Source of the DNA: a virus
IMG/VR virus record: IMGVR_UViG_3300028393_000176
Location: 1-36,709 of that record
DNA length: 36,709 bases
Strand: one strand, 5' to 3'
Shown here: positions 1 to 36,709 of the stretch, one piece after another
Layout of the letters: each line of letters starts with the position of its first letter
Numbering within the stretch: position 1 is the stretch's first letter
Program-made: the position numbers and the translations under genes
Notes under the pieces: generated by a model
The model's input: the letters and a program-made list of their open reading frames with translations, nothing else
Databases searched by the model: none
What the model was told of the DNA's origin: nothing

Positions 1-126
1 CTAATACGATACCAGGCGCTCACGGCGCTAAAGGAACGATTGCCTTTTGATTCGGAAATTTCCAAGATTTTTCCTGGAAAAATTAAAGAAAAAATGGAAA
101 AAATTCTAGAAAAAAATGGAATTAAT
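1..126. repeat. Terminal direct repeat (contig-end overlap) with 36572-36697
   Basis: Bases 1-126 are identical to 36572-36697. Position 127 is T here and A at 36698; the next six bases agree, then the copies diverge. The length is close to a common assembler k-mer, so the simplest reading is a circular or circularly permuted genome cut inside the initiator gene. A true short terminal repeat cannot be excluded. Confidence 0.9.
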
Positions 127-1035
127 TTGGAATTTATTGCAAAAAAAGTTCTAGAAGATTTCGAAAATATTCAAATAAAAAGGGAAAATAATCGGATAAA
201 AAAAGCAGATGAAAGGAAAAAAAATCGGATAAAAAATGAAGAAAATTTGGAAAAAGAATCGAAAAAAAATGAAAATAATTTGGAAAAAAAAGTGATCGAT
301 TTGAGCTCAGATTCAAAGTTTGTCCCTATGGACGTCGCTAACGAAATACATGGTGACGTCACCAACAACGAACAAGGTGACGTCACCGATTTATTACATG
401 GTGACGTCACCAAAAAAGAAATAGGGACGTCACGCTCTAGAGAAGAGAAGAGAAGAGAAGAGGAGATAAGACAAGATGTATTAAATACAAAAGAGAAATT
501 ATTAGAACCACCACCAAACCTCCTCCAAACTGACGTTGTCGTTGGTGGTGGTTTTTCAAAATTTAATTTTGAAGAAAACAAGGGCAATAAGAAGCCGTTA
601 CCGGCGGACTGGGAGGAAACCGTTTGCCGGTATGTGGAAATCGAGAATGATCGGAGAGCCGCGACTACAAACCCCGTTAGGTCAAAACCCGCACTTATAA
701 ACGACCTAAAAAATCAAATATCAAAGGGCAATCCTCACAAAAACATTTTGCCGAATCCAGACAAGTTTTTTGAAATTCAATTTCTGGTAAATGAACACGA
801 GTCAGCAATGGCAAAGGCCGCGAAAAAATCAGACAAAGACGCGGCTTTTAGTATGTACAAGCGGATGTATGCCGCAGAAAAAAGAACCGTTTATGAGGCC
901 GTAGGTAAACTACTTCCAGATTATGACGGGGAATTTGAATATGGCTTTTGGGCACCATACGAGCCGTTTTTCATAACGGTTATAAAAGATCTATTTGGCG
1001 AAGAATTTTCACAAATGAAAGGGGCTTTATCTTGA
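1..1035 (+). CDS. Replication initiator-like protein (C-terminal 344 aa; gene begins at 36503 across the circular junction)
   Basis: The frame is open from base 1 and joins 36503-36571, giving a 367-aa protein. The N-terminus (TNEEIGRLIRY) resembles the winged-helix start of phage replisome-organiser proteins. Next comes a Lys/Glu/Asn-rich low-complexity stretch (window residues about 20-100), then GDVT repeats encoded by DNA palindromes, a GA-rich stretch, and a more conserved-looking C-terminal domain with several Trp/Tyr/Phe. An initiator whose middle holds iterons next to an A-rich tract is the layout of lambda O. It lies downstream of the recombination genes and 3 nt into the start of parA. 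The specific family is not recognised; the initiator role is inferred from architecture and position. The TTG at 40 is an internal codon, not the true start. Confidence 0.62.
   Translation, partial: LIRYQALTALKERLPFDSEISKIFPGKIKEKMEKILEKNGINLEFIAKKVLEDFENIQIKRENNRIKKADERKKNRIKNEENLEKESKKNENNLEKKVIDLSSDSKFVPMDVANEIHGDVTNNEQGDVTDLLHGDVTKKEIGTSRSREEKRREEEIRQDVLNTKEKLLEPPPNLLQTDVVVGGGFSKFNFEENKGNKKPLPADWEETVCRYVEIENDRRAATTNPVRSKPALINDLKNQISKGNPHKNILPNPDKFFEIQFLVNEHESAMAKAAKKSDKDAAFSMYKRMYAAEKRTVYEAVGKLLPDYDGEFEYGFWAPYEPFFITVIKDLFGEEFSQMKGALS
60..300. other. A-rich tract, candidate DNA unwinding element
   Basis: The plus strand is dominated by A runs separated by short GG or TC interruptions. Short repeats occur: AATCGGATAAAAAA appears twice, and variants of AATTTGGAAAAA appear several times. 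It directly precedes the iteron array and is translated as a Lys/Glu/Asn-rich linker. By analogy with lambdoid and plasmid origins it is a candidate melting region; this is inference. Confidence 0.5.
326..436. repeat. Iteron array, candidate replication origin
   Basis: Three perfect palindromes GGTGACGTCACC lie at 352-363, 376-387 and 400-411. Degenerate copies occur at 330-337 (GGACGTCG) and 424-434 (GGGACGTCACG). The ACGTC cores start at 332, 356, 380, 404 and 427, a 24, 24, 24, 23 bp spacing. The repeat is in phase with translation, giving an 8-residue GDVT-type peptide repeat. Iterons inside an initiator gene next to an A-rich tract fit an origin. A centromere for the ParA/RHH pair encoded downstream is the main alternative. 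Confidence 0.75.
506..556 (+). repeat. Intragenic 12-bp perfect stem-loop followed by a T run
   Basis: AACCACCACCAA (506-517) pairs perfectly with TTGGTGGTGGTT (542-553) around a 24-nt loop, and T continues to 556. On RNA this looks like an intrinsic terminator, yet the initiator frame reads straight through it (PPP ... VVVGGG). It may be a structural element of the origin, an attenuator limiting initiator expression, or a primer-RNA terminator. Confidence 0.5.
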
Positions 1036-1721
1036 ACGTAACGGCCAATAAAGAGAAAAAATGCAGGGTAATATCACTTCTGAATCCAAAGGGAGGCGTG
1101 GGTAAGTCCACGATAGCAATTAACCTGTCATACTCGATGACAAAGTATGGGTTGAAGGTATTGTTGATTGATTCCGACCCGCAGGGGACCGTGATGGATT
1201 GGCATGTGGAGAGCGGCGGTGACCTTCTTCCGATCGTCAGCATGACAAAGCTAACGATTGCTCATGATGTTCGTAGAGAATTATCAAACTACGACTACAT
1301 CATTATCGACGGACCTGGGCGGACATCGGAATTAAATGGATTGATATTGTCGGTTTCGGACTTGGTCTTAATTCCGGTCCAGCCGTCCCCCGCAGACATC
1401 AAGGCCGCTAGACGCCTAGTCAATACAATTCACTCACTACGGATCGAATTAGATACCACTCAGCCGATGGCTGCGTTCGTAGTGAGCATGGAGGACAAGA
1501 CCACCGAGATATCAAAACGAGCTGATGCCATGATTATCGAGAAAAATTACAACTTGCCCATTCTAGAGGCCCGAACCGCCGATCGGATTTCCTATGTCCT
1601 GTCGTACGAGCAAGGTAAAACCGTATTTCATAGGGATGACCTGGATGCAAAAAATGAGATGGGGGCGATAGCCATGGAAGTTATTGAGATTTTTGAAAAG
1701 GAGACCGATGATGAAAAGTAA
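1032..1721 (+). CDS. parA: ParA/Soj-family partition ATPase
   Basis: This is a deviant Walker ATPase that would segregate the phage genome as a plasmid. The P-loop KGGVGKST is at residues 20-27, the A' motif LLIDSDPQG follows, and Walker B is IIIDGPG. At 229 aa without an N-terminal HTH domain it fits the short type Ib ParA group, whose partners are usually ribbon-helix-helix proteins, as found next. The frame extends upstream to an ATG at 948, but the TTG at 1032 is preferred: it overlaps the initiator stop and has GAAAGGGG about 7 nt upstream. It is translationally coupled to the initiator and to the RHH gene. Confidence 0.88.
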   Translation: MNVTANKEKKCRVISLLNPKGGVGKSTIAINLSYSMTKYGLKVLLIDSDPQGTVMDWHVESGGDLLPIVSMTKLTIAHDVRRELSNYDYIIIDGPGRTSELNGLILSVSDLVLIPVQPSPADIKAARRLVNTIHSLRIELDTTQPMAAFVVSMEDKTTEISKRADAMIIEKNYNLPILEARTADRISYVLSYEQGKTVFHRDDLDAKNEMGAIAMEVIEIFEKETDDEK

Positions 1722-1899
1722 ATCGAGCCATGAATTAACTAAAGTTGATGTCCACCCGCTTAACGTTAGGGTTCCGTCAGATATATTTTTTGAGTACAAA
1801 TCGCTATTAGCGAAGCAACGAAAAAATATAAAAGAGGAGATCATTTCCCATTTGTTAATGTACATAAAAGAAAATTCAGAAAGGCCAGAAAATGAATGA
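1711..1899 (+). CDS. Ribbon-helix-helix protein, likely ParA partner
   Basis: A 62-aa basic protein. A short beta strand (PLNVRVPSDIF) is followed by two helices (residues about 25-55), the layout of CopG/ParG/omega-type DNA binders. A partner of this fold next to a short ParA forms a type Ib segregation module in which the RHH protein binds the centromere and often represses the operon. The start overlaps parA by 11 nt. AAGGAG at 1698-1703 sits 7 nt before this ATG; the ATG at 1708 is also possible. The fold call is from pattern, not a search. Confidence 0.7.
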   Translation: MKSKSSHELTKVDVHPLNVRVPSDIFFEYKSLLAKQRKNIKEEIISHLLMYIKENSERPENE

Positions 1900-2078
1900 A
1901 AAAAATTAAACGGACTGACTTCTTTCATGGGGAAAAAGTCACCGTTCTTAGTTGGAAAGTGTCAGGAAAAGGCGAATTTATGTCCGAGGTAAATGCTGGC
2001 CTTAAGGTGAAAATCAATGGCGTCATCTCGACGGTCCCAGACAACTGCGTAATTCGAGAAGTAGAGGGTAAGAAATGA
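1896..2078 (+). CDS. Small hypothetical protein (60 aa)
   Basis: This gene is not recognised. It starts with an ATGA overlap on the RHH stop and ends with an ATGA overlap on the phosphoesterase start, so it is surely co-translated. The sequence alternates hydrophobic and charged residues (KVTVLSWKV, LKVKINGVIS), suggesting a small beta-barrel or SH3-like fold. No membrane segment or catalytic motif is visible. Confidence 0.6.
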   Translation: MKKIKRTDFFHGEKVTVLSWKVSGKGEFMSEVNAGLKVKINGVISTVPDNCVIREVEGKK

Positions 2079-2662
2079 CAATCTACATCACTACGGACAC
2101 CCACTTTAACCACGCAAAAATATTTGACTATTGCGATAGGCCTTTGGATTTCCAAGAAAAATTAAAATCGGGATTCTCTAGGCTAACCGAAGACGATACG
2201 TTGATTCATCTTGGGGACATTTGTATTGGCCAAGATGCCGCCATGCACTCGGAATTCATCGTCCCGATCAAGGCCAAAAAGATTCTAATCAGAGGCAACC
2301 ACGATAAAAAAAGTGCCTTTTGGTATGAATCTAATGGCTGGGATTTCGTATGTAATTCAATGGAGTCAATGTACTTCGGGGTTAAGGTCTTATTTTCCCA
2401 TAAGCCTAGAGCGTGGGATGGAATTTTTGACATAAATATTCACGGGCACCTCCATGATCTAGGGCATCGTCCAGGGGAACGCGGTACGCGGATAAATCAC
2501 CTTATCAGCCTAGAGTTCATGGGGTATGAACTCATAAGCCTAAAATCGATTCTAGAGCCTATTAAGGCGGCAATGAATGAATATAAACTTGATCAAAAGT
2601 TTACTCAGTACAACGCAAACGATTTACCCGTAAATTTACACGCTCAGGAGCTTATGGGATGA
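2075..2662 (+). CDS. Calcineurin-like metallophosphoesterase
   Basis: A 195-aa protein with the full metal-ligand set of the family: DTH (D8, H10), GD (D48), GNHD (residues 74-77), H109 in FSHKP, and HGHLH (residues 123-127). It would hydrolyse a phosphomonoester or phosphodiester with a two-metal centre; the substrate cannot be told from sequence. Phage enzymes of this group are often small stand-alone proteins like this one. It is coupled by ATGA overlaps to both neighbours in the par operon. Confidence 0.88.
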   Translation: MTIYITTDTHFNHAKIFDYCDRPLDFQEKLKSGFSRLTEDDTLIHLGDICIGQDAAMHSEFIVPIKAKKILIRGNHDKKSAFWYESNGWDFVCNSMESMYFGVKVLFSHKPRAWDGIFDINIHGHLHDLGHRPGERGTRINHLISLEFMGYELISLKSILEPIKAAMNEYKLDQKFTQYNANDLPVNLHAQELMG

Positions 2663-36502: not shown

Positions 36503-36706
36503 ATGGACTGGTTTAAAATCAAGGTTACTCACGTACTTTGTAGTCCGCTTACGAATGAGGAAATTGGTCGGCTAATACGATACCAGGCGCTCACGGCGCT
36601 AAAGGAACGATTGCCTTTTGATTCGGAAATTTCCAAGATTTTTCCTGGAAAAATTAAAGAAAAAATGGAAAAAATTCTAGAAAAAAATGGAATTAATATG
36701 GAATAA
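36503..36706 (+). CDS. Replication initiator, N-terminal part (continues at base 1 of the window)
   Basis: The first 23 codons (36503-36571) precede the terminal repeat and join base 1 in frame. The frame ends in the window at NGINME-stop because the last 12 bases differ from the start copy (NGINLEFIAKK). The N-terminus MDWFKIKVTHVLCSPLTNEE resembles the beginning of phage replication organisers. The true gene is the joined 367-aa frame; the truncated end is probably a contig-end artefact or a minor variant. Confidence 0.65.
   Translation: MDWFKIKVTHVLCSPLTNEEIGRLIRYQALTALKERLPFDSEISKIFPGKIKEKMEKILEKNGINME
36572..36697. repeat. Second copy of the terminal overlap
   Basis: This is identical to 1-126. 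Beyond it the window continues ATGGAATAAAAT, which differs from the start copy and introduces a stop in the initiator frame. Confidence 0.9.
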
Positions 36707-36709
36707 AAT

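Follow-up and report, generated by a model that had tools for sequence, protein, structure and literature searches.

What might a row of evenly spaced, ACGT-centred palindromes be doing in the middle of a phage gene? The question is raised by the window analysed here, a virus record taken at its full length of 36,709 bases, in which such an array lies within the coding sequence directly upstream of parA. We find that the array is most likely this phage's replication origin, of the lambda O type, as judged from its sequence and from comparison with related loci.

The genome and the array

The last 138 bases of the record (36572-36709) copy bases 1-138: the first 126 are identical, the four mismatches fall from base 127 onwards, and the genome is probably circular in the assembly. 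Because the ends overlap, we place the start of the putative initiator gene at the ATG at 36503, from where it crosses the ends and stops at 1035 (Table 1). RecT and a weakly matching PDDEXK nuclease are encoded directly 5' of this gene and ParA directly 3' of it, while the minus strand carries the structural genes (terminase, portal, major head protein and tail fibre); together these point to a tailed-phage genome with a plasmid-like partition gene. Pfam and PHROG searches with the 62-residue ORF that follows parA returned no family match. Cumulative GC skew leaves the site of the array unmarked and peaks at 3-4 kb, which is a zone of convergent transcription; it is no test of an origin here.

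Table 1. Features of the window around the palindrome array
Feature	Position	Strand	Basis or remark
Putative initiator gene, 5' piece (ATG, MDWFKIKV...)	36503..36571	+	ORF list, terminal overlap, L010 alignment from first residue; continues at position 1
Remainder of putative initiator gene, probable remote homologue of phage replication-initiation proteins	1..1035	+	L010 (E 1.7e-6), L010-L011 match, profile comparison
Degenerate first site	331..336		Only GACGTC core left; repeat finding
Iteron, perfect palindrome GGTGACGTCACC (two GTGACG half-sites)	352..363		Sequence, shuffles
Iteron, perfect palindrome GGTGACGTCACC	376..387		Sequence, shuffles
Iteron, perfect palindrome GGTGACGTCACC	400..411		Sequence, shuffles
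Degenerate last site AGGGACGTCACG	423..434		One half-site intact, CGTCAC at 428
Purine-rich pentamer tract, AGAGA repeated; proposed opening/loading zone	437..466	+	Lag-5 score, relatives' layout
parA (P0002), directly after initiator gene	1032-1721		PF13614 4.3e-25, phrog_164 9.5e-44
62-residue ORF, after parA	1711-1899		ORF list
Phosphoesterase gene, 3' of partition genes	2075-2662		phrog_547, E 1.3e-27

A first-pass annotation had described three perfect palindromes and two degenerate copies, and this description was borne out: the exact copies of GGTGACGTCACC start at 352, 376 and 400, with no further copy in the record, and the degenerate ones at 331 and 423. The same annotation had called the 24-bp phasing exact. 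With ACGTC cores at 332, 356, 380, 404 and 427, the first three intervals are indeed 24 bp and the last is 23. Perfect 12-bp palindromes number 13 in the whole record, three of them being the array copies. When synonymous codons were reshuffled within the gene, at least three ACGT-centred 8-bp palindromes appeared in 301-500 in 1 of 2000 trials, and two pairs at 24-bp spacing in 0 of 2000.

The array is flanked, as had also been proposed, by an A-rich tract (75-300, 58% A) and a purine run (437-480, 52% A and 34% G) with its AGAGA repeat. The lag-5 repeat score of the pentamer tract is 26 of 30, the best of 200 synonymous shuffles reaching 24, and a fold check of 437..466 gave no self-structure. 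Just 3' of the tract, still within the putative initiator gene, there is a hairpin at 506-557 with a 12-bp stem (ACCACCACCAA pairing with TTGGTGGTGGT) followed by a T run. The fold of 500-560 beats 200 of 200 shuffles (z -3.2), and the hairpin may be a terminator-like or a single-strand hairpin element.

Loci sharing the paired palindrome

Viral contigs were scanned for pairs of GTGACGTCAC sites separated by 22-28 bp. This gave 18 loci; of two control palindromes matched in composition, one gave 3 loci, on two contigs, and the other 0. At eight of the 18 (L004, L005, L008, L011, L014, L018, L019 and L021) the gene that contains the array has a match among the replication-initiation, helicase-loader or primosomal PHROG families; L010, which has no PHROG match, is a ninth candidate. 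No ORF longer than 80 residues covers the array at three others (L009, L012 and L020), two of which, L012 and L020, have in common a pair of TTTCGTGACGTCACGAA sites 26 bp apart.

The same scan of genome contigs gave 104 stretches, many of them in high-GC genomes or off ORFs. We examined 80 of these and ran PHROG on seven picked by hand, a choice that yields no rate; four gave clear replication-initiation matches, one a weak match, one a helicase and one none. Even 21-bp arrays of GTGACGTCAC, with up to eight copies (L051), were seen in Chitinophagaceae, Odoribacteraceae and Binatia genomes (L039, L050, L051, L061, L062 and L109), mostly without a long ORF over them. A TrwC relaxase match was found for one of 18 ORFs in alignment A1, presumably, from its length and place, L017:2883-8159, a frame with GTGACGTCAC-type sites; such sites may occur in mobilisation genes too.

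Kinship of the window protein

With its two ends joined, the window protein has no Pfam or PHROG family match beyond chance level, and searches of viral contigs and phage records confirmed no direct relative. Its kinship was reached only through the DNA pattern. The sole direct homologue found is the protein of L010 (33% identity over P0001 residues 3-146, E 1.7e-6; 29% identity in the alignment with the joined protein). For this L010 protein (P0003) the search of viral contigs returned only its own contig, that of phage records two matches at E 0.8, and that of plasmids none. The L010 gene has TGACGTCA at 24-bp steps, and two such 24-bp pairs arise in 1 of 2000 synonymous shuffles. The two linkers have GDVT in common, encoded by the sites themselves, and little else is alike. 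The first-pass annotation had proposed that loss of the palindromes through synonymous variation among relatives would refute its view. In the only direct homologue found they are retained, at 24-bp steps. The pentamer tract of L010 is within chance (score 19, shuffle maximum 21), and the structure modelled for its protein is of low quality (pLDDT 64) and lacks a wing.

The first 48 residues of L010 match L011, which belongs to a PHROG replication-initiation family (blastp 8e-7, a single comparison), and a two-sequence profile set against the family profile gave E 1.4e-4 with a probability of only 53. The chain leading from the window protein through L010 to L011 and its family, which suggests that the window gene encodes an initiator, is the weakest link of our argument.

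Sites, spacing and tandem tracts in relatives of the initiators

A first set of relatives was collected by searching with the N-terminal part of four initiators, disregarding the array, which gave 60 loci. Removing six duplicates, three short sequences and four loci selected by palindrome left 47 genes; counts of half-sites and tracts used 51, those last four included. This set over-samples proteins with A/M at the two positions discussed below, since one of the two search patterns took in motif residues just before the linker. For a second set (80 loci) the query sequence stopped ahead of the motif.

In the 180-nt linkers of the 47 genes there are 41 ACGT-centred 8-bp palindromes, whereas synonymous shuffling predicts 4.6 (maximum 13 in 200 shuffles); outside the linker there are five in the domain and one in the C-terminal part. 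The sites are mostly GNNACGTNNC, and each phage mostly repeats one NN. Dominant half-sites summed over the 51 genes come to 244, whereas 100 shuffles average 92.6 and reach 106 at most. Between adjacent half-sites of the same type the distance is mostly 4 bp, when they form a palindrome, or 11-12 bp, when they point the same way, a spacing count that, like the frame counts below, takes in related genes; the 24 bp of the window is two steps of this 11-12-bp lattice. In 50 of the 51 relatives the best 5- or 6-bp tandem tract is downstream of the sites, a position counted without a null. The tract is T-poor on the coding strand (on average 3.5 T per 36 nt). It outscores all shuffles of the gene in which it lies in 19 of 51 cases, and their 95th percentile in 29 of 51. 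Our computations show selection of the sites at the DNA level, the lattice on which they lie and the order of sites followed by tract.

Other palindromes are enriched as well. CGCG-centred ones show a linker excess (20 against 4.5 expected, maximum 11), often as CGCGCG runs (L161-L220), and GCGC-centred (13, maximum 12) and CATG-centred ones (7, maximum 6) a slight one; these excesses are unexplained and fall outside what our model accounts for. Whole-genome searches were thin, with matches in 2 of 299, 8 of 296, 5 of 299 and 2 of 398 genomes, and GTSAC density in 17 loci from three of them gave weak signs only. One locus from a genome of the phylum of Lacticaseibacillus (L154) matches PF09681 at 2.3e-50 and has overlapping GTAACGTTAC palindromes; L155-L158 were left out of this comparison.

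The pattern could also be a by-product of protein sequence, the peptide GDVT being what is selected. The three window copies do lie in one frame, all encoding GDVT, and across 109 genes all 19 copies of GTAACGTTAC share a frame, as do 15 of the 17 copies of GGAACGTTCC. However, in the same genes GTGACGTCAC is read as DVT in 16 cases and as VTS in eight, its third frame being closed by TGA, and GAAACGTTTC occurs in all three frames (7, 11 and 31). Copies even differ in frame within one gene in 9 of 27 multi-palindrome genes. Moreover, the palindromes are lost on synonymous shuffling and the linker is of low confidence in the structural model, so we consider this explanation scarcely credible. 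If it holds, the site pattern also shows one DNA stretch under two codes, writing a loose peptide linker and a predicted binding array in more than one frame.

A second alternative is that the sites are operators serving autoregulation: the initiator, or some other regulator, would bind there and govern how its own operon is transcribed, with no part in starting replication. The DNA-binding protein and its sites would share one gene, such binding would look alike in all the tests made here, and the hairpin with its T run lies inside the gene. On the other hand, in most relatives the sites are placed mid-gene, in the linker and beside a tandem tract, a layout resembling the lambda and Tuc2009 origins. 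Regulation as the sole role of the sites is in our view unlikely; origin and operator roles could both apply at once.

The first-pass annotation had also offered the array as a centromere for a ParA/RHH pair. In that case the small protein encoded after parA, which the annotation took for an RHH protein, would bind the array, and ParA would partition the phage as a plasmid. ParA/RHH centromeres typically consist of short repeats in even phase close to parA, and here parA and the 62-residue ORF lie directly 3' of the array gene. The small protein has no family match, which leaves its RHH identity to the view of that annotation. Comparison of loci speaks against this proposal: ACGT palindromes clustered within 60 bp were present at none of 13 loci with ParA relatives (12 of them informative, as L022 starts inside parA), and a ParA homologue was present at none of 78 loci with the array or an initiator (18 and 60, four contigs being in both), whose flanks span a few kb and would miss a remoter parA. 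The type of site in relatives also follows residues of the initiator, as set out below. We regard a centromere as a distinctly improbable reading and favour an origin.

Two protein residues predict the type of site

Site types in the relatives include GTGACGTCAC, GAAACGTTTC, GTAACGTTAC and GCAACGTTGC. Labels were assigned to the genes solely from the DNA that lies 3' of the protein motif S-D-S-S-x-E-R-y, since the motif's own codons may contribute to a half-site (GAAACG, for instance, can arise from V-K-R). Even so, selection at the DNA level may favour the V of T/V proteins where the frame writes VKRF; for the residues T, A and N we saw no comparable explanation.

In a training set of 42 labelled genes, two residues corresponded to the half-site as follows: A/M to GTGACG (9 of 9), T/V to GAAACG (13 of 14, the exception having GGAACG), N or K/V to GTAACG (5 of 5), A or K/T to GTGACG (4 of 4) and T or S/S to GCAACG (2 of 2), with eight of the 42 genes outside the classes of the rule. 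When the rule was fixed, the 80 loci of the second set were already listed and their sequences had yet to be analysed. Of these loci, 15 were already in training, ten were duplicates and two had no motif; among the 53 genes kept, 23 went unscored (18 without a clear leading type, five without a prediction). The rule was right in 28 of the 30 genes scored, compared with a mean of 18.06 and a maximum of 26 in 10,000 label shufflings. The hits comprise 22 GAAACG and six GTAACG genes, and only these two classes are confirmed. Both misses have another half-site in the lead: GTTACG in L240, an A/M protein with a DPT insertion, and GGAACG in L255, a T/V protein. GCAACG was never scored, and GTGACG, the class of the window, was scored once, in the missed L240, so for GTGACG the rule rests on the training set. 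In the alignment the window protein has N and I at the two positions and L010 has K and K, both outside the rule; perhaps the window gene represents a branch in which other residues read GTGACG.

Might the association simply reflect kinship among the proteins? In the 77 labelled genes of both sets, pairs with the same residues had a common site type in 45 of 59 cases below 30% domain identity and in 44 of 49 at 60% or more, whereas for pairs with different residues the counts were 33 of 374 and 2 of 36; these pairs are not mutually independent, and the motif of L172 was read differently in two runs. For 6 of 77 genes the type agreed with that of the nearest gene differing in the residues, and for 58 of 71 with that of the remotest gene having them in common. 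The identity-binned counts argue that kinship does not explain the association, while a test of independent pairs on the domain tree, which is poorly resolved, gave only one or two supported pairs. The counts at 60% identity or more also bear on the idea that a host factor targets the sites, or that they are a restriction-modification signal shared by many hosts. Pairs of GTGACGTCAC do recur across different phages and hosts, as that idea would have it, but the site type varies by phage and tracks the phage's own protein, which makes a host target very improbable.

In an AlphaFold model of the L164 protein (mean pLDDT 78.8), a winged helix comes first, then a helix at 92-106, and after that a linker modelled with low confidence, which is encoded by the site-bearing DNA. 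Helix 92-106 holds both residues of the code and an arginine invariant in 51 of 51 aligned sequences. The simplest reading of the model is that this helix contacts the half-site. Since the two residues predict the type of site, the initiator is the putative binder, as it would be in a lambda-type origin.

None of the named phages examined confirms the rule. Acinetobacter phage Silvergun contradicts it, being T/V with GTAACG leading 3 to 2; Bradyrhizobium phage ppBjS10J-1 is outside it; and the linkers of Pseudomonas phages D14H and PP9W, with one hybrid GTAACGTTTC and a tract, have too few sites to score. L303 and L304 were left out of this scoring. In both D14H and PP9W the family member comes before dnaB, with the repressor and early regulatory genes on its other side; D14H lists it as 'putative DNA replication protein O', PP9W as a hypothetical protein.

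A model for the array

Taken as an origin, the array suggests the following model. The window gene would make an initiator which, as in the relatives, would have an N-terminal winged helix and then a basic helix. The basic helix would read GTGACG-like half-sites in the DNA that encodes the protein's own linker, and in the window each GTGACGTCAC palindrome consists of two such half-sites back to back, the palindromes following one another at 24 bp. As 24 bp is two steps of the lattice, one face of the DNA could accommodate several initiators in a row. Several copies on the 11-12-bp lattice would then form a nucleoprotein complex, as O does in lambda, and the bound initiators might open the DNA or load the helicase at the strand-asymmetric pentamer tract just downstream. 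Binding, opening, helicase loading and origin function are all inferred here. The earlier description of origin-like iterons inside an initiator gene agrees with what the relatives show, namely such sites in initiator linkers, with the function a prediction.

Beyond this phage, the evidence tips modestly towards a widespread class of phage origin in the linker DNA of winged-helix initiators. Such origins would combine GNNACGTNNC sites, spaced on an 11-12-bp lattice, with a tract of pentamers or hexamers downstream, and their specificity would be set by two residues one helical turn apart after the wing (A/M for GTGACG, T/V for GAAACG, N or K/V for GTAACG, T or S/S for GCAACG). An ACGT-core site class common to diverse phage initiators, a two-residue code and a tandem tract as frequent partner appear to be new: neither the site class nor the code was found in the full-text literature searched, which left preprints and most subscription papers outside.

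To our knowledge, the origins of most sequenced phages are unmapped. If the pattern holds, the position of the origin, its binding site and the specificity of the initiator could be predicted from sequence for many phages, and natural matched pairs of initiator and site would be available for studying how protein-DNA specificity changes. The compatibility of co-infecting phages would likewise become predictable.

Comparison with known systems

Phage_rep_org_N (PF09681) matches 13 of the 51 proteins in the relatives' alignment A6 at E 0.01, whereas the joined window protein and that of L010 have no match to it at E up to 1. Foldseek with the family model gave nothing at E 0.001 or better; its ten best matches (E 0.012-0.059) included 4pta, 4pt7 and 5kbj, which we take to be plasmid RepA initiator structures, together with MarR-like repressors. 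In structural alignments the DnaD N-terminal domain reached Z 7.8, Z values near 8 being common, and the best match in a sequence profile search of the PDB had E 0.14. As these scores are in the range of common winged helices, kinship of the family with RepA or DnaD is a mere possibility.

The phage sites and those of eukaryotic bZIP proteins are both presumably read by a basic helix. GTGACGTCAC is the CRE motif, a bZIP site with an ACGT core (PMC4555227). The coincidence suggests no kinship between bZIP proteins and phage initiators and would at most be convergence.

Origins within initiator genes are already known from lambda, where the O gene has mid-gene sites, each an imperfect inverted repeat, that are bound by the O product and adjoined by an AT-rich region (PMC7466680). 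The palindromic unit had been thought unusual for an origin of this kind; that view does not hold, as the lambda iterons are themselves imperfect inverted repeats (PMC7466680). The window array resembles lambda and Stx phages in having repeated inverted-repeat sites inside a coding region, and the A-rich stretch (75-300) and the purine tract (437-466) beside it are candidates for an easily opened region. It differs in that sites in the window and its relatives are ACGT-cored, those of the relatives lying on an 11-12-bp lattice, in that the downstream tract is a T-poor pentamer or hexamer tandem repeat rather than plainly AT-rich, and in that the window protein matches no O family.

Neither Tuc2009 nor TP901-1 rep has GNNACGTNNC palindromes, and the linker repeats of Tuc2009 are of another sequence. 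Nevertheless, the lactococcal Tuc2009 rep is annotated 'contains origin of replication', and its linker, read by eye, consists of direct repeats followed by a 5-bp tandem tract. Thus, on this reading by eye, it is the layout and not the site that our family has in common with an origin located by others.
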